Of a stretch of DNA of 53,934 nucleotides, positions 1-53,934 are shown in pieces. Within the stretch, counting starts at the first letter, position 1. Each line of letters starts with the position of its first letter. The notes below the pieces were generated by a model that saw nothing but the letters and a program-made list of their open reading frames with translations, was not told the origin of the DNA and searched no databases. The stretch is taken from the NCBI GenBank assembly GCA_021372815.1, contig JAJFTS010000194.1:1-53934 (forward strand), read 5' to 3'. The position numbers and the translations under genes were made by a program. Source of the DNA: Deltaproteobacteria bacterium. GTDB taxonomy: Bacteria > Desulfobacterota > Syntrophia > Syntrophales > Smithellaceae.

Positions 1-164
1 CCTGAACCGGCCAAGGACGCCGCCCAGAAGCACATTGAGCAGATTATGAAGGGAACTAGCCGCGGTTACGAGGAAGCCGTTTTGCGCGAGCAGCATATGC
101 AGAACGTCATGTTAAATAGAGAGAAATCGAGAAGCGAAGGGAGAACGTATTCAGATGTTGACGG
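1..164. repeat. Terminal direct repeat, left copy
   Basis: Bases 1-164 align with 53771-53934. From base 40 to 164 (125 bases) the match is perfect. Bases 36 and 39 differ and most of the first 18 bases differ. The simplest reading is an assembly overlap of a circular or circularly permuted genome, with strain variation in the first 39 bases. A real short terminal repeat cannot be excluded. Confidence 0.9.
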
Positions 165-8856: not shown

Positions 8857-10335
8857 ATGACAATATCGGTCACAAGTAATGAATATTCGGTCTTTGGCAA
8901 CAAGGCTATCGCTTTGGCCGATGTTGCGTTTGATTCCTCTTACCCAACGGGAGGCGAATCTTTTGACCCGGAAACTCTTTTTGGATTGCACGATGTATCC
9001 CTGGCCTTATTTGAGTCACAGCAGGGTTATTCTTTCCAATATGATTACACCAACAAGAAAATCAAGATATTTGCTCCCGCTCCCCCTATCGTTTACGAGG
9101 AAAAGCAGACACCTTCCAGTGATATTGTGACCACCAATTACCCCGCCGCTTTCTTTATCAATGCTACCCGAACCGGTAACAACAAGAAATTCCGATCAAC
9201 CGGTATTGCTTTGGCCTCTTTGTCGGACGATGAAATTTGTCTGGCTGAACAGATGGCCGCCGGCGAACGCACACAGTTGACCGTCAAGGATTATGATCGG
9301 CTGGCGGGTGATGGCGCATTTACCGGTGGAACGACGAATTGGACATTTGACGCGGCTCCCTGGACATACGGAACAAACAAACTGGCAAAAGATGCTGATG
9401 GGACAAACACATTGACCCATGACACGTTCGCTGCCGTTATTGGCCGCACTTATCGGCTGTCTTACACGATATCCAGCTGGACGGTGGGAACAGTAACGCC
9501 AACTCTCGGCGGAGTGGCCGGTACTGCGGTGGGCGCTGATGGCACTTATACCGAAGAGATTACGGCAACGACCACAGATGGGTTGGTGTTTACGCCGTCC
9601 AATACTTCCCGTTTCACGATTGATTCAATCACAGTCTACGATCTTTCTGAACCTGTTTATCTGACCTATGTTACCCAGGCATGGAAGGACGTTTGGGATA
9701 ATCTGGTGCAGGACGAAGAAGTTGCCGTAGCGACTACGGAAACAAGTCTGGCCAATGCACCAATGGCAATTATGTATGCTGACCGGACGAGCGCAACGGC
9801 AAAAGCACTGACTTTAATTGATGAAGATGACACCGCGGCATCAGGTGAAATAGCTTTTTATTTTAGTCATGCCGCAGATAATATTAAAGCCGTGCATGCT
9901 GACGAAAACAACAAAACGGTAAAAATAACCTACCTGAAAAAACCCGCCAGTGGATTCTTGTGTGACAGGCAATTCGAGAATGAAGGCGCGACGAAAGCTG
10001 GCGGAGATCCCTACACCAACACATTTGATTACCCCATTCTGATCTGGGCTTATACCGGGCAGGTTCCCATCAACGGCGGCGCTACTCAACGGCTTATTGA
10101 TTATGCCGGTACTCCGGCCGCAGGTGAAGCTGTCATTGATTGGTTTACACCAGGAGCAAGAGGGGCAGGCGCACCGGCTACGGGAACCGTTATCGGGACA
10201 AAGAGTGATGTTACGGCCACAGGTGCGGGAGTTTGGGGAACAATTAACGAAATCCAAAACCTGCAACCCCTGGAAATCAAGGATGGCGTCGATCTTTCGG
10301 GCATATCAACCCGGCTGATGCTCATCGGGGTATAA
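8857..10335 (+). CDS. Virion structural protein with an inserted beta-sandwich domain
   Basis: 492 residues. Residues 1-145 and about 265-492 look like one structural protein. Between them, at about 152-262, lies a self-contained Thr/Gly-rich unit (FTGGTTNWTF, then RTYRLSYTISSWT, then GTYTEEITAT, then FTIDSITVYDL) with the layout of carbohydrate-binding or Ig-like jelly-roll domains seen as insertions in phage proteins. The DNA before and after reads as one continuous frame. It probably sits on the capsid or collar surface; the insertion could bind host or environmental polysaccharide. Inferred. Confidence 0.7.
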   Translation: MTISVTSNEYSVFGNKAIALADVAFDSSYPTGGESFDPETLFGLHDVSLALFESQQGYSFQYDYTNKKIKIFAPAPPIVYEEKQTPSSDIVTTNYPAAFFINATRTGNNKKFRSTGIALASLSDDEICLAEQMAAGERTQLTVKDYDRLAGDGAFTGGTTNWTFDAAPWTYGTNKLAKDADGTNTLTHDTFAAVIGRTYRLSYTISSWTVGTVTPTLGGVAGTAVGADGTYTEEITATTTDGLVFTPSNTSRFTIDSITVYDLSEPVYLTYVTQAWKDVWDNLVQDEEVAVATTETSLANAPMAIMYADRTSATAKALTLIDEDDTAASGEIAFYFSHAADNIKAVHADENNKTVKITYLKKPASGFLCDRQFENEGATKAGGDPYTNTFDYPILIWAYTGQVPINGGATQRLIDYAGTPAAGEAVIDWFTPGARGAGAPATGTVIGTKSDVTATGAGVWGTINEIQNLQPLEIKDGVDLSGISTRLMLIGV

Positions 10336-24449: not shown

Positions 24450-25772
24450 ATGCCGTTTCAACCGCCACATTACGAATATCCATTGCAGACAACATTTAAA
24501 GATCCTGCTGGTTCGGCTATCAAAGGAATTTCACAGGGGTTGGCTTTATATGCCCAATTTCAAGGCGCGAAGAAGTTGTCAAATCAAGACCAACTCACTC
24601 AGGACATCGGCATGGTGCACGATAAGACGCAGGCGGAAATCGCCGCCTTAGAGAAGCCCACAGAACCGGCTTTGACCAACGTGCAGACACCGAATCAGGA
24701 CGAAACTATCAAAAAGATGATGGTTGCTGATCAGACGGTGCAGAATAACGCAGTGCCTGGATTAGCGACGTACAATAATAGCCAGGCGCAAACAACGGGA
24801 GCGTCGCAGATTGCCTCCGATCCCAGGTTGGGAGCTGCGCCGCAGCAGCAGGCAGATGTCCCTTTAGCCAATGTCCAAACAGAAAAGGCCATTGCCAACA
24901 ACGAAGCGGCCAGGATGAAATATGATAAAGACATGGCTGATTATCAAGGTAAGGTCATTGAATTGCGCTCCAAAATGGCAAATAACATTATTGATTTGCA
25001 TTACAAGCATGGCTTTCCGGAAGAAGCACAGAAGATGGAAAGCAAATACATCGAACAGGCGGCCAATGTCGCCAAGTTTATTGACCCGAAATTAGCGGAA
25101 AAGGTCTGGAACAATAGTTCTTTGGCTGAAAAATGGGGCAAGGCGACAATCGAAGATAAAGAGAAGTGGAAGCTGTCAAGCGACGGTTTAAGAGCCATTG
25201 ATGAGAAAACAGGGGAAACGAGAGATATTCCCATGACGGCCAACGATGCCATAAAAATGTTTAAGCCGGTTGCCGAGGGTGCTATGGGGTTTGTTCCTTT
25301 GATTGGCAAGAATAATGAAATCGTGGGTATCTCTTTCCAGAAAAACCCGAAAGACAATACGCGGGAACTAAAGAAGGACGAACGGGAGTCAAAGAAGGAA
25401 GCAAGGCAGGATATAAAGGACAACCTGACGACAAGTGGTCAATATTACAAAGACTTAAGAGTTACGGCTAATGCGTACATTAAAGACAATGAAGGGAGCA
25501 CCGACCCGGAAGTCGCTGGAATGGTGCAGAAATACAAATCTGTTTTGCAGAAGTTGCCCGATTATGAACGCTTTGACCGTGATCATATTACCCGCGGCAT
25601 GGAGCCGGTCAACGCCAATAGAGTTCAAAAATTTCTTGAAGGGCAGCCAGCACAGAATACTTCAAAAGCCCCCACGAGCCGCAAGGAATATTTTGCAGCA
25701 ATGAAGAAAGCAAATCCGAAAGCAACAGACGCAGAAATTAACGATTATCTGGACAAAAAAGGGGTAAAATAA
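24450..25772 (+). CDS. Internal virion / ejection protein B
   Basis: 440 residues, helical, Lys/Gln/Asp/Ala-rich. A short hydrophobic-aromatic start (FKDPAGSAIKGISQGLALYA) precedes long coiled-coil-like stretches (about 145-200, 300-340). No enzyme motif. It abuts the giant gene (its TAA ends one base before the next ATG) and lies in the ejection cluster. Probably a partner in the trans-envelope conduit. Inference from context. Confidence 0.62.
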   Translation: MPFQPPHYEYPLQTTFKDPAGSAIKGISQGLALYAQFQGAKKLSNQDQLTQDIGMVHDKTQAEIAALEKPTEPALTNVQTPNQDETIKKMMVADQTVQNNAVPGLATYNNSQAQTTGASQIASDPRLGAAPQQQADVPLANVQTEKAIANNEAARMKYDKDMADYQGKVIELRSKMANNIIDLHYKHGFPEEAQKMESKYIEQAANVAKFIDPKLAEKVWNNSSLAEKWGKATIEDKEKWKLSSDGLRAIDEKTGETRDIPMTANDAIKMFKPVAEGAMGFVPLIGKNNEIVGISFQKNPKDNTRELKKDERESKKEARQDIKDNLTTSGQYYKDLRVTANAYIKDNEGSTDPEVAGMVQKYKSVLQKLPDYERFDRDHITRGMEPVNANRVQKFLEGQPAQNTSKAPTSRKEYFAAMKKANPKATDAEINDYLDKKGVK

Positions 25773-28700
25773 ATGGCCGGTCTTGTCGATCCGTTTGAAA
25801 CTTCTACTTCTCTGATTGACCCTTTTGAGAAAAAGACAAAAGAACCAGCGACAGGTTACGATATTGTTGGCGGATTAAAAACTGTGGGCGGTTCACTTTT
25901 GCGTGTTCCTGAAAATTTTGCTGCCGCCGGCATTGAAGCCATCGAGGGACAAAGCGGTGCCAGCGTCATCGATAATAAAGGATATGCTGACCGGTTTGTT
26001 AATTGGGTGCAGGAGAGAAACAAGAAGAGACAGGAAGGAATCAAAGCCGAATACGGCGACAAGGAGATGTTGCCCGGGATTAAAGTATCTGATGCCGGTG
26101 ATATGGCGCAAAGTTTGGGCTTTTCCGGTGTAGGCATGGCCACAGGCCTCGCTACAGGTGTTGGGACAGGATTTGTGACTAAGAACCCAGCGGCGGCATG
26201 GACAGCCGGTGGCGCTGCTTCGGGTGCTGCTGCTTATCGTATTGCCTCACACCAATTTACGGAGCAATATCTTGAAGCAAAAAATGAAGAAAGACTGCAA
26301 TCTACCGGCAAGCCGCTGACAAAAGCCGAAGAAGAAGCATTAAAGAAAGACTTTTCCAGTAAGGCTACTCAATATGGCTTATGGGAAGCGATACCGGAAG
26401 CTATCGGGAATGTTGGTGAATTAAAAGCCCTGATTGTCCCTTTGAAAAATACTGTAGGGAAAAAGTTGGCCACAAAAATAATGGCTAAAATGGGCAGCCT
26501 CTATGGGTTAGAGGGCGCAACCGAAGCCGTCACCCAAATGGGGCAACAACAAACGGAATCAGAGGCGGGATTAACACAGGAAAAGCCTCGTTCATGGACA
26601 GAACCGGAAGATTGGTGGAAATCCGCAAAAGAAGTTTTCCCTGCTGTCTTTTTGCAATCATCTTTAATGGCGGGATTAGGCGGTGGTGGCGCGGTAATTA
26701 AGGGGAAATACGGACAACGCAGAACTTCTTTGTCCATTCAAAATGCCGTAGCCGATGATCAGCACCTTAACCTTTCCGACGAAGATTTAGCCGGCACATT
26801 ACAGGGCGCAACTGATCTTCTACAAAAACGAAAACACGATAAAGGCTTAGGAAAAGCGGTTGCCTCCCTGCAACAAGAGGCGGCAAGACGGCAACAGACG
26901 ACAGAGCAAACAATGGAGCCGGGAGATGCGGGGCAAACAGAGCAAACCGCACCGCCGGAACCGAATATGCCAACAGAAGAAACTCCGCCCCTTGCCCAGG
27001 GCGTACCCGTTGCAGAGGCAAGTCCGACGCAATATGAAAACATAATTCAGGCCAGCGCCACTAAATACGGCATTGACCCTGCTTTGGTTAAAGCAGTCAT
27101 CCAATCCGAAAGTGGATTCAGAAATGGCTTAACCAGCCCGAAGGGTGCGGCGGGTTTGATGCAGCTCATGCCGGGAACGGCCAAAATGCTCGGCGTTAAT
27201 AACGTAATGGACCCTGTAGAGAATATCGAGGCCGGGACTGAATATCTTGCCGGACTTTTGAAAAAGGTCGGTGGGGATGAAGCGAAAGCATTGGCCGCTT
27301 ATAATTGGGGGCCCGGAAATCTTGCCAAACACGGCCTTGACAATGCTCCGAAAGAAACACGGGACTATATTGCCAAAATACAGGCGAACAAGACGAAGTT
27401 TGGCGGCGGCGGCGAAGCAATGTTACAGACGCAACCCGCAGGCACAGACCCGAAAGAAGCTGTTATTTTATTCAAAAACGCCATTCAGACCGGTTCCATT
27501 CCTTTGCAGGAAGCTATCGCCAAAAGAAGCGAGATCATCAGCGAGTTTCCAGAAGAAGAAGATGAAATCAACAAGGCCATTATCGAGGCGCAGGCATCAA
27601 GGCCACTGGCGGGAATCGCGCAGGAAGAAACGCCGATCATTACCGAATCACAACCGACTGCACCTTCGCCAACTATTTCTCAACCGGCACTGCCGCAGCA
27701 AAATGAAGTTGATATCAGCGAACTGCAAAACCGGATTGCTCAGCAGGAAAGCTACCTTGACACCCACCAGGGATATAGAGGGACGGAGATTTATAAATCA
27801 TGGCAGGATACCCTTGTTCAAGACAAGGTAAAACTGGCCGAATTGACCGGTGGGATACCGGTTAAAGCCCAAACTATTCAAACCAGTCCTGCCAATCTAC
27901 CAGCCCAACCGGAGATCGTTCAACCTGGGGCATCCTCGCAAGAAGGCGCTGGAAGCCCCGCCAATCAAGGGATTGCGGACGTAAAGACTAAAGAACCGTG
28001 GGAAAGCGATAGAACCTTCTTGACAGACAAGGTTCTTTTTGATAACCTACCTGATATAAAGGAGGTAGGTGGTAATGTTAAACAAGAACTTCGTCGCAGG
28101 ATTGATAGCAGGAGAGGGAACGTTCGTAAAATACCAACCGACTCGACAACGAAAGAGCAAACCGCATCAGAGTTATTGGGAGTTCAGCTTTCAGATACAC
28201 ATGGCAAAAGACGAGGAAGACTTGATACAAGCACTACACAAATTTCTCGGAGTAGGGAAAATATACTACAACGGCAGGCAACATCCGAATTGGCAGACAT
28301 CTTTGAGCTTACGAGTGGGGAAGCAGGAAGATATAAAGAAAGTCTTGATACCATTCTTCAACAAACACTTGGCAAGGATGCCTTGCAAGAAGGCAATACA
28401 ATACAGGGAATGGAGAGACGCATTTCTGGATTATTACAAAAATCGGTTGCCGATAGGATATGGCGATCCATTCAAGAACAAAAGAAAAAACTTATAGCAT
28501 CAGTCCCCGATCATGTGCGTGCTGAATATGGTCTTACAACCAACAAGGAATCCTTACAGGCTGATCGCCCAAGCGGTGAAACAGTTACGAAGGCACCGGA
28601 AGCCGTGCCTTTAGAACCAGAAGAAATTCGCCTTGAACAGACCGACGAGGGCAGGTTCACTCTTGACTTAATGAAGGAGCAATTGCAGAATGGAACTGCT

Positions 28701-31700
28701 GGCACAATTCAAGATGCTGAAGGTGACTTTTCTCGTTTTTCCTCTCATGCGCCGTGGTTCAGGGAAATTGCCAAAAAACATAAAATATCGGCCAAAGATA
28801 CAATTCGCATTATCGACAAAGTTGTAAAAGGTAAGTCTTTAACCCAAAAACAGGAGAAGGCATGGCGGGACATTCGCCGGGCAGCCATTAATGAGCAAAA
28901 TAACAATCCCTTAGTCCGTGAATTTTCAGAAACCTTAAGGAGAGAATATGAGCGAGCAGCAACAGAACTCAAAGCCGAAGGCATTGACGCCAGCGCAATT
29001 GAAGAAAACAAAGGAGACATTATTGCCAATGCTTCAGAAACACCTGGAGCGGAAGGGCTTACTCCCGAAGTCCTTGAAACCAATGCCGCAGAAGTAGAAT
29101 CATTTTTTGATGAAATTATAAAGGAAACAAAGAAGCGGGAACCGCAGCAAAAGGAAACCCCCAAAGGCGAATTTGACACCGGAGAACTGGAAGGCTTTGG
29201 CCTTAAAGACACCTTCGGCCTTTTAAATCCTGAAACGGATATGTCTCAGCATAAGCCTCTCTCTGAGCAGAAAACGGCGAAGAATGAGGAATTGTTTGCG
29301 GAAAACCATATTCCTGATACCACGAAAAAGGTTGAGAAGGAAGCACAAAAACAGCCCTGGCAGATGACCCCCGAAGAATACGCTGGGAATAAATCAACCG
29401 ATGAAAAGGCGGTTGCACTCGCGGCACACCCCCAACACGTTAAAGACGCATTGGCTGAAGGAAAGAAAGTTCCGATAGGCGTGTTGGAGAAATATAAAAA
29501 TAATGTCTGGGCGCAAAGAGCTATTGCTAATCTTAACCCGAAAGAAGAAACCAAAGAAACCGACAAAGGCGTTGCGCTGTATAACCGTTCATCCTCCCCC
29601 CCTCGTGGCATAACCACTAGACAGGTCAATTCGGTTGTCGATAAGGTAAAATCATTCCTGAAAGCCGCACCGAAAATCAATGTTGTTCAGCATGTTTCCG
29701 AATGCCCCAAGACCGTTCTAAATGACATGAAACGTAACGGCATCCTAGACGAAAACGGTGACGCTGATGTGCAAGGTTTCGCCTGGAAAGGTCAAGTCTG
29801 GCTGGTGGGCGATAATATCGACAGCCCCCAGGAAGCCCTTAAAATCCTGATGCACGAATTGACCCATGACGGATTAGGGAAGTTCCTGTCAGCCAATACT
29901 CCGAATGTAAAACTGCGTTCTATCCGGTTGCAATACAAATCCTTGATGGATGCAATTTATCAGGCGCACGAGAAGGAAGTTAAGAAGATCGCCCGAACCA
30001 CTCACACGCACCTTGATGTTTCCACCCTGGCCGGGCAGAGGCAGGCGGCGGAAGAATGGCTTTGCAATCAGTCTTATCAGTCTCAGCCGAAATGGTACGA
30101 TAAACTTGTGACAATTTTCCACGATATCGTGAGGGCTATCGGGTTTGACGTTAAGCTGAGTGATTCGGAAGTCAGGACAGTTTTGCAGGATGCTTTCAGA
30201 AATTTCAAAGAAGCTGGTAAAGAAGCAGTTTATATTGAAAAATCTCCTGAAGCGGCAACGGTTTCCGCCGCCAGAAAGGAAACGGCGAAGTATGCCCGTT
30301 CTGCCCGTGCTCTCTCCATAGAGGAAATTATTGACCAGATCGAAAGGGACGAGCTTGCTGCTCTGGAAGCTCCCAATCCGGAAACCAAGGAAAGCCGTCT
30401 TGCCGTGCGCCTGGAAAAAGAAGCGATTGCCAAAGAGCTGACCGCCAATTTTGGCGATCTGGCCGAATACAAGACCATGAACATGCAGGAACAGGCGGAC
30501 ATGGCTCAAGACGTTATGAACAACGATTATGATCTGGCAAAACGTATGGCCATGGGTGAAATTGCTCCTCCTCCTAATGTCAGAGCGGCTTCGATGTTTG
30601 AGGCTGTCAAAATACGGGCATTGGATGAAGGTGACGTTGAAACCTTGCACCTTTTAGCCACAGAATCCACCATCCCCACCATGTTAAGCCAGTACGGGCA
30701 GGAGATCAAGGCCGCCGATTCCTACTTGATGGCCGATCCGGTCAAGGCCATGCAGACTGTTATCAAGCACCGGATCGAAGAAACCAAAAAGACCAAAGGC
30801 ACAAAGGCACAGCAGGCAGAAGAACTTGCCACCTTGCGCAAAAAACTGGAAATAGCCGAAAAGAAACTCGCGGATTATCAGGCCAAGAAGGAAGAACAGG
30901 CCGCCGGTGACGTCATTGAAGAAATGATCAAGAAGCCGGCCAGAAAGAAAGCGTCTTTTGGTTCAAAAAACAAACTCGTCACAGTGGAAGAATTTCAGCG
31001 GTTACGTGAAGAACTACGCAACTCAGCCAAAGGAACTCAGTTAAATGCCTTCCCTGACCCTACCCAGTTTGTTAAAATGGTAAAAGTAGGCGTTTTTTAT
31101 ATCGAAGGCGGCCTCCGTGATTTTTCATCATGGAGTAAGCAAATTATTGAGGATGTTGGCGATTGGATTAACCCGCACGCACAGGAAGTATTCGACGAGT
31201 CTTTGAAATCCTACCATACAGGCGTTATTCAGGGCATTCAGGAAGATATAAGACAGGCCGTAACTGAAGATTCTTTTGGCAATATCGGCAAATACGCCAA
31301 AGACTTAGCCAAGCATTTTATATCTTTGGGTATAACTGAACGGGAAGAACTTTTTAATAAAATCCATGATGTTTTAAAAGCAGAAATGCCCGATCATACA
31401 CGACGAGATACAATGAAGGCCATTTCGGGGTATGGAGAGTTTAAACCCTTAGACCCAGATGCAATATTAACCAAGTTCCGGGACTTCAAAGGCCAGATCC
31501 TGCAAATCGCCAAACTGGAGGATTTGATTAAGACAGGCCGGGCAGAAAAGACCGGATTTGAGCGACAAACGCCGAGCGACGAAGAGCGCCGCCTTACCAA
31601 GTTGGTAGAAGATGCCAAGAGAAAATATGGGATTGAAACCGTCGATAAGGATCGGCTTTTAAAATCCGCCCTTGATGCTATTAAAACCAGATTAAAGAAC

Positions 31701-33863
31701 CAGATTAAAGACCTGGAGTATCAGATCGAAACACGGAAAAAGATTGTCCCGGTCAAGCATGATATAAAACGTGATGCCGAAGCAAGGGCACTAGAAAAAC
31801 GTCGGGATGAGTTAAAGGCCGATTTTGAGGCTATTTTCGGGAAAACTCATATTACTGACGAGCAGCGCCTTAATGCCGCCCTGAAGATCACCGAAAAAAG
31901 TATTGCTGAGTATTACCGCCGCATAAAAGAAGGCGATGTGTCCGGGATGACTGCGACATCAACGCCGCTAAAGTCTGCCCTGTTGGATATGATGCGGGGG
32001 CGCCGGGAAGAATTAAGACAGGAATACAAGCACCTGAAGGATTTAGCCAATCCGAAGAAAACGCCGGAAGAAATTGCGCTGAGATCATTGAAAACCAGAT
32101 TGAGGAACGAGGCCAAGAAATACTCGGAAATGCTGGACAACCTGAATTTTGAACCAAAGCCGAAACGGGAAAGAAATATCGACGCCGAAGGCCAAAAATT
32201 GCAGGATGAACGGGACCGGATTAAAAAGAATTACCAGGAAGCGTCAAAGGTCAGTAGTATTACCAAGGAGGAAGCGGAAAATATTGTCAAATTATCCAAG
32301 ATCGTTTCCGAAACAAAGGAAAATCTGGAAAATGGCGGGAGTCGGTTTGATTATGGCGCTGCCCGGGTCGCCTTTGAAAAGTACATCGAACACCTGAAAG
32401 GCCGGGATGATACCATTTCGCATATGGCACGCCGCCGGGCAGATGAGTTTAAAACCACCTATCAGGACCATAAGGCGAAGGCCGTTTATGATGTGATCAA
32501 GGATTCCATTCAAACGATTTCGGATACGTCCATTTCTCTGGTAGCCTCTCTGGATAACAGTTTTATTGGCCGCCAGGGGCTGAAAGTTTTAATGACCCAT
32601 CCAACTGTCTGGTGGCCGGCGGCAAGAGAATCATTCCGGGACATTCGAAAGGTTTTGGGCGGTCAGGATGCCCACGCCGCTTTGATGGCTGATATTTACT
32701 CCCGTCCCAATTGCCTGAACGGGGCATATGACACAGCTAAGTTAATTCCTAAGACGGAAGAACAGTTCCCGACTTCCATGCCGGAGCGGGTGCCGTATGC
32801 CGGAAGAATGTTCAAGGCCAGTCAGACAGCTTTCGAAGGTGCGGCTATTCGGATGCGTACCGATCTTTACGACCTCCTATCCAACACGGCGGAAGAAGCC
32901 GGGCAGAACGTCACCGACAAAACATGGATTGAAGATGTTGGCCGATTAATCAATTCCTTGACGGCCAGGGGTGCCTGGGGCAAGCGCGGAGAACCGGCCA
33001 TAGTAAGGGTTATCCTTTGGGCCCCGAAGATGCTGAAGGCCAATCTGGACGTTTTGACGGCGCATGGTGCGGGGGCTGGTTTGGAAACAGGTTTTGCCCG
33101 GAAAGAAGCGGCTTTGAACCTGCTAAAAATCGTTGGCAGTACGGCGGTATTGTTAGCAATGGCCGCGGCTATGGGTGCCGACGTAGAAGATGACCCCAGA
33201 AGTACGGATTTCGGGAAAATTAAGGTAGGTGATACCCGGTTCGATGTTACCGGCGGCGCCGCTTCGATTATCACTTTGGCGGCAAGATTACTTTCCGGAT
33301 CTTATAAAAGCGCCTCTACCGGATTGATTCATAATTACGGCACCAAATATGCCGCCCGGACTCGTTGGGATGCCTTTATTGACTTCTTGACTAACAAGAC
33401 CAGCCCACCGGCAAGAGTTGTCGTCGATATGCTGAAAGGTAAAAACTGGAAGGGCGAACCGTTTACATGGTCCGGGGCAGCGTATCAAGCTCTCACCCCA
33501 ATCTCTATTCAAAATGCTATTAAACTAAAAGATGAAGCGTCGGCAGACCGTGTTTTGGGTGTCATTGCCGACTTTGTGGGTGTGAATACTCAATCCTTTA
33601 CCGCCTCCGAAAAAGCCTGGGATGAAGAACAGTCCAAAGAAATGAAACAGTTCCATGATCGCCTTGGTGCCGATAAATTCAAAGAGGCCAATAAAAAGTA
33701 TAATGATCGGGTTAATTCCTGGTACGATAAGGCAAAGAATAATCCTTATTTCCAGAAATTAACCGATGATCAGAAGTCCGAAGAATGGCGCAAAGAGCGG
33801 GCAAAAGCGAAAAAGGCCGCGTTCAGGGAGTATCACTTTTGGCCGAAACGGGAAAAGAAGTAG
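25773..33863 (+). CDS. Giant polyvalent ejection protein: transglycosylase and zincin domains
   Basis: 2696 residues, the last gene of the late operon. Residues about 105-150 form a Gly/Ala-rich membrane-active segment. A lytic transglycosylase (SLT) domain follows at about 419-540: YGIDPALVKAVIQSESGF with the catalytic Glu near 446, AAGLMQLMPGTAKMLG, ALAAYNWGPGNLAKHG. A zincin metallopeptidase-like domain lies at about 1290-1470 with LMHELTHDGLGKF near 1360 (HExxH). Long charged coiled coils fill 1560-2200. A hydrophobic stretch near 2450 (STAVLLAMAAAMGA) and a basic end close it. This is the large polyvalent protein plan, injected with the DNA to cut peptidoglycan. Residues about 765-908 overlap a LAGLIDADG gene in another frame. 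Confidence 0.88.
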   Translation: MAGLVDPFETSTSLIDPFEKKTKEPATGYDIVGGLKTVGGSLLRVPENFAAAGIEAIEGQSGASVIDNKGYADRFVNWVQERNKKRQEGIKAEYGDKEMLPGIKVSDAGDMAQSLGFSGVGMATGLATGVGTGFVTKNPAAAWTAGGAASGAAAYRIASHQFTEQYLEAKNEERLQSTGKPLTKAEEEALKKDFSSKATQYGLWEAIPEAIGNVGELKALIVPLKNTVGKKLATKIMAKMGSLYGLEGATEAVTQMGQQQTESEAGLTQEKPRSWTEPEDWWKSAKEVFPAVFLQSSLMAGLGGGGAVIKGKYGQRRTSLSIQNAVADDQHLNLSDEDLAGTLQGATDLLQKRKHDKGLGKAVASLQQEAARRQQTTEQTMEPGDAGQTEQTAPPEPNMPTEETPPLAQGVPVAEASPTQYENIIQASATKYGIDPALVKAVIQSESGFRNGLTSPKGAAGLMQLMPGTAKMLGVNNVMDPVENIEAGTEYLAGLLKKVGGDEAKALAAYNWGPGNLAKHGLDNAPKETRDYIAKIQANKTKFGGGGEAMLQTQPAGTDPKEAVILFKNAIQTGSIPLQEAIAKRSEIISEFPEEEDEINKAIIEAQASRPLAGIAQEETPIITESQPTAPSPTISQPALPQQNEVDISELQNRIAQQESYLDTHQGYRGTEIYKSWQDTLVQDKVKLAELTGGIPVKAQTIQTSPANLPAQPEIVQPGASSQEGAGSPANQGIADVKTKEPWESDRTFLTDKVLFDNLPDIKEVGGNVKQELRRRIDSRRGNVRKIPTDSTTKEQTASELLGVQLSDTHGKRRGRLDTSTTQISRSRENILQRQATSELADIFELTSGEAGRYKESLDTILQQTLGKDALQEGNTIQGMERRISGLLQKSVADRIWRSIQEQKKKLIASVPDHVRAEYGLTTNKESLQADRPSGETVTKAPEAVPLEPEEIRLEQTDEGRFTLDLMKEQLQNGTAGTIQDAEGDFSRFSSHAPWFREIAKKHKISAKDTIRIIDKVVKGKSLTQKQEKAWRDIRRAAINEQNNNPLVREFSETLRREYERAATELKAEGIDASAIEENKGDIIANASETPGAEGLTPEVLETNAAEVESFFDEIIKETKKREPQQKETPKGEFDTGELEGFGLKDTFGLLNPETDMSQHKPLSEQKTAKNEELFAENHIPDTTKKVEKEAQKQPWQMTPEEYAGNKSTDEKAVALAAHPQHVKDALAEGKKVPIGVLEKYKNNVWAQRAIANLNPKEETKETDKGVALYNRSSSPPRGITTRQVNSVVDKVKSFLKAAPKINVVQHVSECPKTVLNDMKRNGILDENGDADVQGFAWKGQVWLVGDNIDSPQEALKILMHELTHDGLGKFLSANTPNVKLRSIRLQYKSLMDAIYQAHEKEVKKIARTTHTHLDVSTLAGQRQAAEEWLCNQSYQSQPKWYDKLVTIFHDIVRAIGFDVKLSDSEVRTVLQDAFRNFKEAGKEAVYIEKSPEAATVSAARKETAKYARSARALSIEEIIDQIERDELAALEAPNPETKESRLAVRLEKEAIAKELTANFGDLAEYKTMNMQEQADMAQDVMNNDYDLAKRMAMGEIAPPPNVRAASMFEAVKIRALDEGDVETLHLLATESTIPTMLSQYGQEIKAADSYLMADPVKAMQTVIKHRIEETKKTKGTKAQQAEELATLRKKLEIAEKKLADYQAKKEEQAAGDVIEEMIKKPARKKASFGSKNKLVTVEEFQRLREELRNSAKGTQLNAFPDPTQFVKMVKVGVFYIEGGLRDFSSWSKQIIEDVGDWINPHAQEVFDESLKSYHTGVIQGIQEDIRQAVTEDSFGNIGKYAKDLAKHFISLGITEREELFNKIHDVLKAEMPDHTRRDTMKAISGYGEFKPLDPDAILTKFRDFKGQILQIAKLEDLIKTGRAEKTGFERQTPSDEERRLTKLVEDAKRKYGIETVDKDRLLKSALDAIKTRLKNQIKDLEYQIETRKKIVPVKHDIKRDAEARALEKRRDELKADFEAIFGKTHITDEQRLNAALKITEKSIAEYYRRIKEGDVSGMTATSTPLKSALLDMMRGRREELRQEYKHLKDLANPKKTPEEIALRSLKTRLRNEAKKYSEMLDNLNFEPKPKRERNIDAEGQKLQDERDRIKKNYQEASKVSSITKEEAENIVKLSKIVSETKENLENGGSRFDYGAARVAFEKYIEHLKGRDDTISHMARRRADEFKTTYQDHKAKAVYDVIKDSIQTISDTSISLVASLDNSFIGRQGLKVLMTHPTVWWPAARESFRDIRKVLGGQDAHAALMADIYSRPNCLNGAYDTAKLIPKTEEQFPTSMPERVPYAGRMFKASQTAFEGAAIRMRTDLYDLLSNTAEEAGQNVTDKTWIEDVGRLINSLTARGAWGKRGEPAIVRVILWAPKMLKANLDVLTAHGAGAGLETGFARKEAALNLLKIVGSTAVLLAMAAAMGADVEDDPRSTDFGKIKVGDTRFDVTGGAASIITLAARLLSGSYKSASTGLIHNYGTKYAARTRWDAFIDFLTNKTSPPARVVVDMLKGKNWKGEPFTWSGAAYQALTPISIQNAIKLKDEASADRVLGVIADFVGVNTQSFTASEKAWDEEQSKEMKQFHDRLGADKFKEANKKYNDRVNSWYDKAKNNPYFQKLTDDQKSEEWRKERAKAKKAAFREYHFWPKREKK
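28045..28070 (+). promoter_or_regulatory. Hairpin overlapping the nested gene's ribosome site
   Basis: ACCTACCT (28045-28052) pairs perfectly with AGGTAGGT (28063-28070) over a ten-base loop that holds the AAAGG half of an AAAGGAGG Shine-Dalgarno. The fold would partly hide the ribosome site of the LAGLIDADG gene until read through or melted, like the hairpin control known for T4 I-TevI. The same bases also code for the giant protein (DNLPDIKEVGG). Confidence 0.6.
28075..28497 (+). CDS. LAGLIDADG homing endonuclease nested out of frame
   Basis: 140 residues from ATG 28075, with AAAGGAGG ten bases upstream; a GTG at 28069 in frame is also possible. NFVAGLIAGEGTFVKYQ is the LAGLIDADG helix with its catalytic acidic residue. 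It is followed by YWEFSFQIHMAKDEEDLIQA, FLGVGKIYYN and VLIPFFNKHL, all in the family's order. One motif means it acts as a dimer. The whole gene lies inside the giant ejection gene in frame +1, and the giant frame stays open across it. Confidence 0.85.
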   Translation: MLNKNFVAGLIAGEGTFVKYQPTRQRKSKPHQSYWEFSFQIHMAKDEEDLIQALHKFLGVGKIYYNGRQHPNWQTSLSLRVGKQEDIKKVLIPFFNKHLARMPCKKAIQYREWRDAFLDYYKNRLPIGYGDPFKNKRKNL

Positions 33864-47203: not shown

Positions 47204-47578
47204 GTGAAATTGAAAAAGCCTCCTGCTTTTATGTTCTACGCTTCTGACTTTTATATGGACACTTCAACATGGGATGCGGACGATATCGGGGTTTATATTA
47301 GGCTCCTTTGCATGGAATGGGTGAACGGTCCTTTAGAGGCCGACACAAGAAAGCTGGCCAAAATTGCGAAGAAAACGCATCAAAAATTCATCAAAAATTG
47401 GTCAAAAATTAATCAAAAGTTTGTCGTTTCTGGTAACGGATTTGTTGTAAATCTAAGGTTAGAGGAAGAACGTGCCAAACAAATGTCTTTCCGCGAAAAG
47501 CAAAGAGAGTTCGGCAGGTTGGGAGGAAAGCCTAAACAATCACTTAAAGAAAATATGGAGGTTTTTCAGCAAGGGTAG
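47204..47578 (+). CDS. DUF1376 replication-associated protein, C-terminus frameshifted
   Basis: 124 residues, GTG start with AAAGG upstream. KLKKPPAFMFYASDFYMDTS, then DDIGVYIRLLCMEWVNGPL, then VVNLRLEEERAK is the DUF1376 domain of phage replication proteins. It stops at 47578 after KENMEVFQQG. In the next frame the sense goes on to 47660 (SLRLPYRVAYRVAKPRALKK), as usual for this family. A one-base excess in TTTTT (47562-47566) would explain the break. Confidence 0.82.
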   Translation: MKLKKPPAFMFYASDFYMDTSTWDADDIGVYIRLLCMEWVNGPLEADTRKLAKIAKKTHQKFIKNWSKINQKFVVSGNGFVVNLRLEEERAKQMSFREKQREFGRLGGKPKQSLKENMEVFQQG

Positions 47579-47615
47579 CCTTAGGCTACCCTATAGGGTA
47601 GCCTATAGGGTAGCC
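47572..47615. repeat. GGGTAGCC repeat and palindrome cluster
   Basis: GGGTAGCC occurs three times direct and once inverted. GGCTACCCTATAGGGTAGCC (47584-47603) is a perfect 20-base palindrome. It is followed by an AT-rich stretch (about 47640-47695) at the start of the primase gene. Possible initiator-binding cluster of a replication origin. Confidence 0.6.
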
Positions 47616-52290: not shown

Positions 52291-53934
52291 AGAATTATTA
52301 AGGCGTAGGAAAGCAGTTGATAGTCTGGTGAATTTCGCCCAGGCTATTGATATTCCGGGAAAGCCAGTATCGGAAGATCCTGATGAATGGTTGTTTAATC
52401 CTGTGGAAACAGATTTGGCGAAGCATCATGTTCTGATGTTGGAGGTCATGGAGTGGGTGATCACGGGTAAGCGCCCAGAAAGAGCTAGGTATTTGTTGAC
52501 GGAATGTGAGAAGGCTCCGCGCCGGGCTATGTTCTTTCTTCCGCCAGGTAGCGCCAAAAGCTCTTATGGTTCAGTCGTTGCGCCAACGTGGGCAATGGGC
52601 AAATTCCCCGGAGAAAAAATTATTCTTGCCTCTTATGGATCAGATTTAGCCCGTAAACATGGGCGCAGAGCAAGACAAATAGCAAAATCAAAAGCATATC
52701 AATCAATTTTCCAAACTAAAATATCATCCGAAACATCTGCAGCTGATGAATGGGCATTGACAACAGGATCTGAATATCTTGCATGTGGCATTTTGTCAGG
52801 TATTACAGGAAATCGAGCGCATGGTTTGATTATTGACGATCCGGTAAAGGGGCGTCAAGATGCGGACAGTGAAACAGTACAACAGCGCACTAAAGACGTT
52901 TACGATGAGGATTTACTTACTCGTTTAATTCCTGGTGGGTGGGTGATGATAATCCAAACACGGTGGAATGAGTTAGATTTGTCGGGTGGTATTTTGCCGG
53001 AAGATTATGAAGGAGCCAGTGGGTTAATCCATTGCCGTGACGGAAACGATTGGTATGTGGTCTGTTTGCCCGCGCAATGCGAAAGAAATGACGACCCGTT
53101 AGGCAGGAAGCCCGGAGAGTTTTTGTGGCCTGAATGGTTCAGCGAAGAGCATTTTAAGCCGTTTATGATTAATACCCGCACATGGAATGCTTTGTTTCAG
53201 CAAAGGCCACAGCCGGAAACAGGAACATTCTTTCAACGTGAATGGTTTCATAGATATAATCCCAAACAAAAACCAAATAATTTATATATTTATGGTTCTT
53301 CTGATTATGCGGTTACTGATGATGCTGGTGACTTTACTGAACATGGAGTCGTCGGAGTTGACCCAGACAATAATATTTGGATTTTAGATTGGTGGCATGG
53401 ACAGACAACGGCAGATATTTGGTTTGAATCTCTTTTGGATTTAATTGCTATTCATAAGCCTTTTTGCTGGTTCGGGGAGGCGGGAGTGATTAAGAGAGCT
53501 ATTGAACCGTTTCTAGAGCGGCGTATGATTGAGCGAATGGTTTATTGCCGACATGAATGGTTGCCTTCCATTGCAGACAAACCAACAAGGGCAAGAGGAT
53601 TTCAAGCCAGAGCAAGCCAGGGTAAAATTTATATCCCAGAGGGAGAAACAGGGGATCGAATTATTGATCAATGTTTAAGATTTCCCACTGGTAGCCATGA
53701 CGATGCCGTTGATGTTCTGAGTTTGTTTTGTAGAGCGCTCGATCAAGCTCATCCGGCCATTGCACCTCGGGTTAAAAAGGAAGTACCTGCCGCCCAGAAG
53801 CACATCGAACAGATTATGAAGGGAACTAGCCGCGGTTACGAGGAAGCCGTTTTGCGCGAGCAGCATATGCAGAACGTCATGTTAAATAGAGAGAAATCGA
53901 GAAGCGAAGGGAGAACGTATTCAGATGTTGACGG
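52253..53934 (+). CDS. terL: Large terminase subunit (runs off the window end)
   Basis: ATG 52253 lies inside terS. 560 residues are present here and the stop is at 171 on the other end. The ATPase domain has a Walker A variant FFLPPGSAKSSYG near 97-105, Walker B GLIIDDPVKG near 200, and a coupling motif in the strand VMIIQTRW. The nuclease domain has SDYAVTDDAGDFTE with its catalytic Asp near 355, and GSHDDAVDVLSLF near 490. It is a TerL of the type with an N-terminal ATPase and a C-terminal RNase H-like nuclease. It powers DNA packaging. Confidence 0.95.
   Translation, partial: MSFSQSLITDAAKELLRRRKAVDSLVNFAQAIDIPGKPVSEDPDEWLFNPVETDLAKHHVLMLEVMEWVITGKRPERARYLLTECEKAPRRAMFFLPPGSAKSSYGSVVAPTWAMGKFPGEKIILASYGSDLARKHGRRARQIAKSKAYQSIFQTKISSETSAADEWALTTGSEYLACGILSGITGNRAHGLIIDDPVKGRQDADSETVQQRTKDVYDEDLLTRLIPGGWVMIIQTRWNELDLSGGILPEDYEGASGLIHCRDGNDWYVVCLPAQCERNDDPLGRKPGEFLWPEWFSEEHFKPFMINTRTWNALFQQRPQPETGTFFQREWFHRYNPKQKPNNLYIYGSSDYAVTDDAGDFTEHGVVGVDPDNNIWILDWWHGQTTADIWFESLLDLIAIHKPFCWFGEAGVIKRAIEPFLERRMIERMVYCRHEWLPSIADKPTRARGFQARASQGKIYIPEGETGDRIIDQCLRFPTGSHDDAVDVLSLFCRALDQAHPAIAPRVKKEVPAAQKHIEQIMKGTSRGYEEAVLREQHMQNVMLNREKSRSEGRTYSDVD
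53771..53934. repeat. Terminal direct repeat, right copy
   Basis: Matches 1-164; perfect from 53810 to the end. It is within terL and in the same frame as the left copy, so joining the ends restores an intact terminase. The differing first 39 bases show sequence variation between the two copies. Confidence 0.9.

Follow-up and report, generated by a model that had tools for sequence, protein, structure and literature searches.

In the textbook cases, endonuclease genes sit harmlessly in important genes as part of introns or inteins. The ShiLan element is arranged differently: an HNH endonuclease gene lies out of frame within mycobacteriophage DNA methylase genes (Arsenault, Gosselin and Gogarten, 2025; PMC11855218). 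Its host frame is free of stops, neither an intron nor an intein nor a ribosome site was detected, the host methylase is non-essential, and a disjunct distribution with empty sites was shown (PMC11855218). ShiLan hinted at a third way beside introns and inteins; GC-rich phages get open alternate frames almost free. In phage T4, hairpins over ribosome sites limit how far endonucleases are translated from read-through transcripts, and these hairpins are bypassed by internal late promoters (PMC2988022).

We analysed a stretch of 53,934 nucleotides (the window), in which a LAGLIDADG gene had been predicted to lie out of frame inside a giant ORF. The ORF coordinates and a Pfam match agreed with this prediction. 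The giant protein contains an SLT transglycosylase domain (Pfam), and its PHROG matches are lytic tail, internal virion and DarB-like proteins; 'ejection protein' is a reasonable label that we infer for it. A P22-like portal is encoded in the same phage genome, and a 146-bp direct repeat of 98.6% identity occupies both ends of the window (19-164 and 53789-53934). Judging by the portal and the shared ends, the window probably represents a single, nearly complete phage genome within a bacterial assembly; the terminal repeat suggests that this genome is about 53.8 kb long and complete, circular or terminally redundant. The features of the locus are listed in the table.

Table. Features of the nested endonuclease locus (positions in the window).
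Feature	Position	Strand	Remarks
Giant virion (ejection-type) protein gene	25773..33863	+	2696 codons; frame stays open through the endonuclease gene; ORF list, domain matches
Giant-frame stretch without counterpart in the relatives found	28005..28583	+	Residues 745-937; outer limits of the element
Second hairpin	28011..28036	+	8 perfect pairs, 10-nt loop, then TTTTT; terminator-like or regulatory
Hairpin over the ribosome site	28045..28070	+	8 perfect pairs, 10-nt loop; stem 28045-28052/28063-28070
Ribosome site AAAGGAGG	28058..28065	+	9 nt ahead of the endonuclease ATG
LAGLIDADG endonuclease gene	28075..28497	+	140 codons plus stop, +1 relative to the giant frame; Pfam, AlphaFold

Several other observations were made on this genome. 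The segment of the giant protein encoded at 29349-30218 is about 50% identical to its counterpart in an archaeal virus, Methanosarcina virus MetMV, although the window was binned with a bacterium, and relatives of this segment also occur in contigs binned as Methanoperedens and Planctomycetota. In the same assembly, contig L064 (G000:C273, about 24730-25560) carries at its end a partial giant-protein relative (residues 956-1153, 31%), so that a second related phage is probably present. Overlapping perfect inverted repeats cluster at 47572-47613, possibly as an operator or origin element.

The endonuclease ORF ends with a TAG at 28495-28497. Pfam LAGLIDADG_1 matched residues 8-116 of its product with an E-value of 2.4e-12 and a score of 48.1 bits, above the curated cut-off of 23.1. 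The helix motif VAGLIAGEG is present together with the acidic metal-binding residue; Glu14, which occupies the catalytic position, does not vary among 14 aligned relatives. The AlphaFold model (mean pLDDT 85) has the alpha-beta-beta-alpha-beta-beta-alpha order characteristic of the family, and its best PDB fold matches were I-PnoMI and I-OnuI. A profile built from the endonuclease and its relatives likewise matched I-OnuI-type endonucleases in PDB. As judged by profile and model, the product is a real LAGLIDADG protein, and site-specific DNA cleavage is predicted for it. LAGLIDADG proteins with one motif act as homodimers; this protein has a single motif and so would work as a homodimer. The closest relatives found in phage records were HGTV-1 gp104 and proteins of Kersh and BaboJay, with 26-36% identity and the same motif, and the 395 genomes of the phylum held one relative (29% identity). 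No second copy of the nested element was found, which counts somewhat against a homing element, since mobility and constraint on either frame can be measured only with further copies.

Endonuclease genes of the LAGLIDADG class are often intron-borne, and degenerate introns can evade detection. An unrecognised self-splicing intron might therefore take the region out of the mRNA, the endonuclease being an ordinary intron ORF. The original prediction had proposed a search for an intron core. Rfam, run on 0.9 kb at lax thresholds (E up to 10), returned no match and no intron core, and a known group I or II intron was rejected on this ground. The unmatched sequence around the ORF is only about 70 nt on the 5' side and 90 nt on the 3' side, and an intron would have no reason to remain open in the host frame. 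We consider such an intron highly improbable. An intein was rejected as well, since the endonuclease is one base out of the giant frame and not in frame with the host protein.

We then asked how the giant protein compares with its relatives. Scanning viral contigs with single proteins of the window gave no relative, whereas alignment queries did; the relatives found were MetMV, the viral contigs L030-L035 and genomes of the same order, the last with partial relatives only. As the original prediction had proposed, the giant protein was aligned with these homologues. Those covering the region aligned to residues about 592-744 and again from about 938-962, but never across 745-937, and residues 745-960 had no match in 50,697 phage records. 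The inter-domain place holds other modules in relatives, about 330 residues in MetMV and about 130 in L023. Because relatives carry other sequence there, the region around residues 745-937 is a variable inter-domain site with a putative insertion, and a clean empty site was absent among the relatives found. Of the earlier claim that the giant protein 'gained about 140 residues', the absence of the stretch from all relatives found stood, and the gain itself is putative, other modules lying at that place in relatives. The lack of an empty-site relative among those found counts against a homing element; no relative was close enough to compare presence and absence at the exact site.

The composition of the locus suggests narrower limits. 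Near 28.01 kb the GC content drops from 0.57 to about 0.41, with a recovery near 28.50 kb, and over about 28.01-28.50 kb the codon score of the giant frame dips lower than anywhere else in the giant gene. Both dips suggest an element of about 490 bp (about 28010-28497) that ends at the endonuclease stop codon or close to it, with these ends putative. The best target-site pseudo-palindrome at possible junctions scored 7/11, a value that falls within the null and therefore fixes no boundary. A direct repeat flanking the element (27942/28589, 81%) was set aside as probably due to chance. An AlphaFold prediction of the giant stretch, made from a shallow alignment, gave pLDDT below 50 for residues 696-956, with better predicted helical segments on both sides; at this low confidence it shows only the absence of a recognised domain. 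These values fit a tolerated linker.

Since different modules occupy the same place in relatives, adjoining recurring KEPW-type motifs, the whole variable segment (28.00-28.58 kb) could have come by recombination between giant genes, with the endonuclease as a passenger. On the other hand, the endonuclease ORF is unbroken and retains the acidic residue of its motif as well as its ribosome site and hairpin. This intactness suggests that expression has recently been selected for, and the low-GC island matches the ORF plus its leader. We regard such a module swap as unlikely. The KEPW/KQPW-type motifs recur at module borders of giant proteins (L030, L031, L002 and the window) and are perhaps a module-shuffling signature.

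The host frame does read through the element, as had been claimed, and we asked whether this could be chance. At 42% GC, several stops would be expected to close this frame, so that its being open is informative. A stop in the giant frame requires an endonuclease codon ending in T before AA, AG or GA. T was found at 0 of the 46 stop-capable places, while 17 of the 93 codons elsewhere end in T (Fisher P 0.00075). Permuting the endonuclease's own synonymous codons gave a mean of 4.7 stops (zero-stop P 0.0017 and 0.0015). A model based on the codon usage of this phage's other genes, with amino acid and context matched, predicted 10.7 stops (P 3e-7), and the same usage scaled to the low third-position T (T3) of the endonuclease predicted 6.1 (P 8e-4). 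The third frame, taken as a negative control, had 10 stops where 10.7 were expected. Among 758 windows of other genes of this phage, none was open in the equivalent frame relation. Zero stops over 140 codons, against 4.7-10.7 expected depending on the model, suggest that the host frame is held open by selection. The original prediction held that the gene survives because the host frame reads through; these statistics strengthened that view, which remains an inference.

The endonuclease might instead interrupt the giant gene with the host frame open by luck and unselected, the element being perhaps recent or the long product unused. T3 is low throughout the endonuclease gene, and it is also rare before purine-start codons unable to make a stop (2/34; contrast P 0.18), which weakens the claim of stop avoidance; under this strictest control, the 2/34 rate, the zero-stop chance is about 0.06. 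These codons are not a fully independent control, since T before them would give the giant frame Tyr, Trp or Cys. Two GC-rich nested cases are open at chance level. For the ShiLan copy in phage Mantra, an out-of-frame HNH gene (65% GC), the same permutation test expected 0.9 stops with a zero-stop P of 0.33, so its read-through is unremarkable, in contrast to the P of 0.0015 here; a nested gene in contig L051 (68% GC) gave P 0.26. Against luck stand the P values of 0.0015 to 3e-7 across four codon models, the 0/758 windows and the fact that in relatives one continuous protein is homologous to both flanks. Taken together, chance read-through is quite unlikely.

The ribosome site predicted ahead of the endonuclease ATG was confirmed. 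Its sequence AAAGGAGG occurs six times in the window (both strands), and in only three cases at start-codon distance, namely for the genes starting at 8857, 28075 and 44017 (minus strand). A GTG at 28069, in frame with the endonuclease, was rejected as the start because it is too near the ribosome site. The 8-pair stem overlapping the ribosome site, which had been likened to phage T4, was also found: it is perfect, folds with -12.1 kcal/mol (z -2.7), and equally good folds arose in 2 of 200 shuffles. As in the case of I-TevI, the hairpin lies over the ribosome site, and its effect on translation is a prediction. Only 3 of the 8 ribosome-site bases are paired in the stem, the others lying in the loop, so any control by this hairpin may be partial. 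The second hairpin, upstream, was found in the present analysis and is not part of the original prediction. Taken together, the two hairpins fold better than shuffled sequences by 2.85 sd, and no other perfect 8-pair hairpin with a 10-nt loop occurs in the giant gene. The upstream hairpin with its TTTTT (28011-28041) sits inside the giant coding frame.

A consensus scan with spacers of 16-18 nt reported no promoter ahead of the endonuclease, which counts against a dual-coding homing element. The hexamers TTGACA (28020) and GATAAC (28041), separated by 15 nt, would place a start near 28053, just beyond the 5' arm of the hairpin over the ribosome site. An internal promoter whose transcript lacks this arm is only an idea, since the scan reports none there.

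We consider it likely that the locus is a splicing-independent, dual-coding homing element, with mobility unproven. A LAGLIDADG gene with its own ribosome site would have inserted itself into the giant virion gene, in a variable inter-domain part that is probably unstructured. The host frame would continue through the element and yield a virion protein with about 140-165 extra linker residues. The endonuclease would be translated apart, from its own AAAGGAGG and ATG, either on the same transcript or on an internal one, and the hairpin would hold its output low or timed. The endonuclease homodimer would then cut element-free copies of the site, and the element would spread by repair. More tentatively, and with somewhat less than even confidence, we propose that dual coding spares the cost of invading a virion gene: synonymous sites would be tuned by selection against host-frame stops (perhaps also Cys, Trp and Tyr), and the hairpin would separate the two translations. 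Under this proposal the element would be a third route beside introns and inteins, independent of the free open frames of GC-rich genomes. The element is also an overprinted gene pair in which the older frame is known, and the presence of a ribosome site and a hairpin makes its expression and homing directly testable.

Among the known systems, the T4 genes for the intron endonucleases I-TevI/II/III and the free-standing genes mobE and segB resemble the present element in having a hairpin over the ribosome site and an endonuclease gene within another transcription unit (PMC2988022). They differ in lying in introns or between or splitting genes and in belonging to other endonuclease classes, whereas the present gene is a nested LAGLIDADG gene; late promoters have been mapped in T4 (PMC2988022), while the consensus scan reports none here. 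The other phage LAGLIDADG genes are also placed differently. The gp104 gene of halovirus HGTV-1 is free-standing among tRNA genes, that of mycobacteriophage Kersh is in frame within a host methylase, and that of mycobacteriophage BaboJay lies between two genes, each annotated as an RNA ligase.

A survey of LAGLIDADG relatives yielded a second out-of-frame nested LAGLIDADG ORF, at L051:5941-6441 (IMGVR_UViG_3300036801_000124). Its host ORF has 1109 codons with portal and head-maturation-protease matches. The frame relation is identical to that of the present element, and the host is a long phage head gene; in contrast to the present element, L051 is GC-rich, open at chance level and without a clear ribosome site.

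The original prediction presented the arrangement as a departure from the intron, intein and intergenic norm; the ShiLan-type out-of-frame HNH precedent, published in 2025 (PMC11855218), qualifies this. Each of the two elements lies out of frame within a phage gene whose own frame has no stops, neither has a detected intron or intein, and in both the host-frame product of the insert is of low predicted order. ShiLan is an HNH gene in a methylase gene, whereas the present element is a LAGLIDADG gene in a virion gene with another frame relation. A disjunct distribution with empty sites is found for ShiLan and, among the relatives found, not for the present element; no ribosome site was detected in ShiLan, whereas the present element has a strong one plus a hairpin. 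The present element would work like the ShiLan element yet is not one, as it lacks the HNH endonuclease. Out-of-frame nesting was thus already known, with ShiLan as the direct precedent; the present variant is set apart by the LAGLIDADG class, the virion gene, the element's own ribosome site and a non-trivial read-through.
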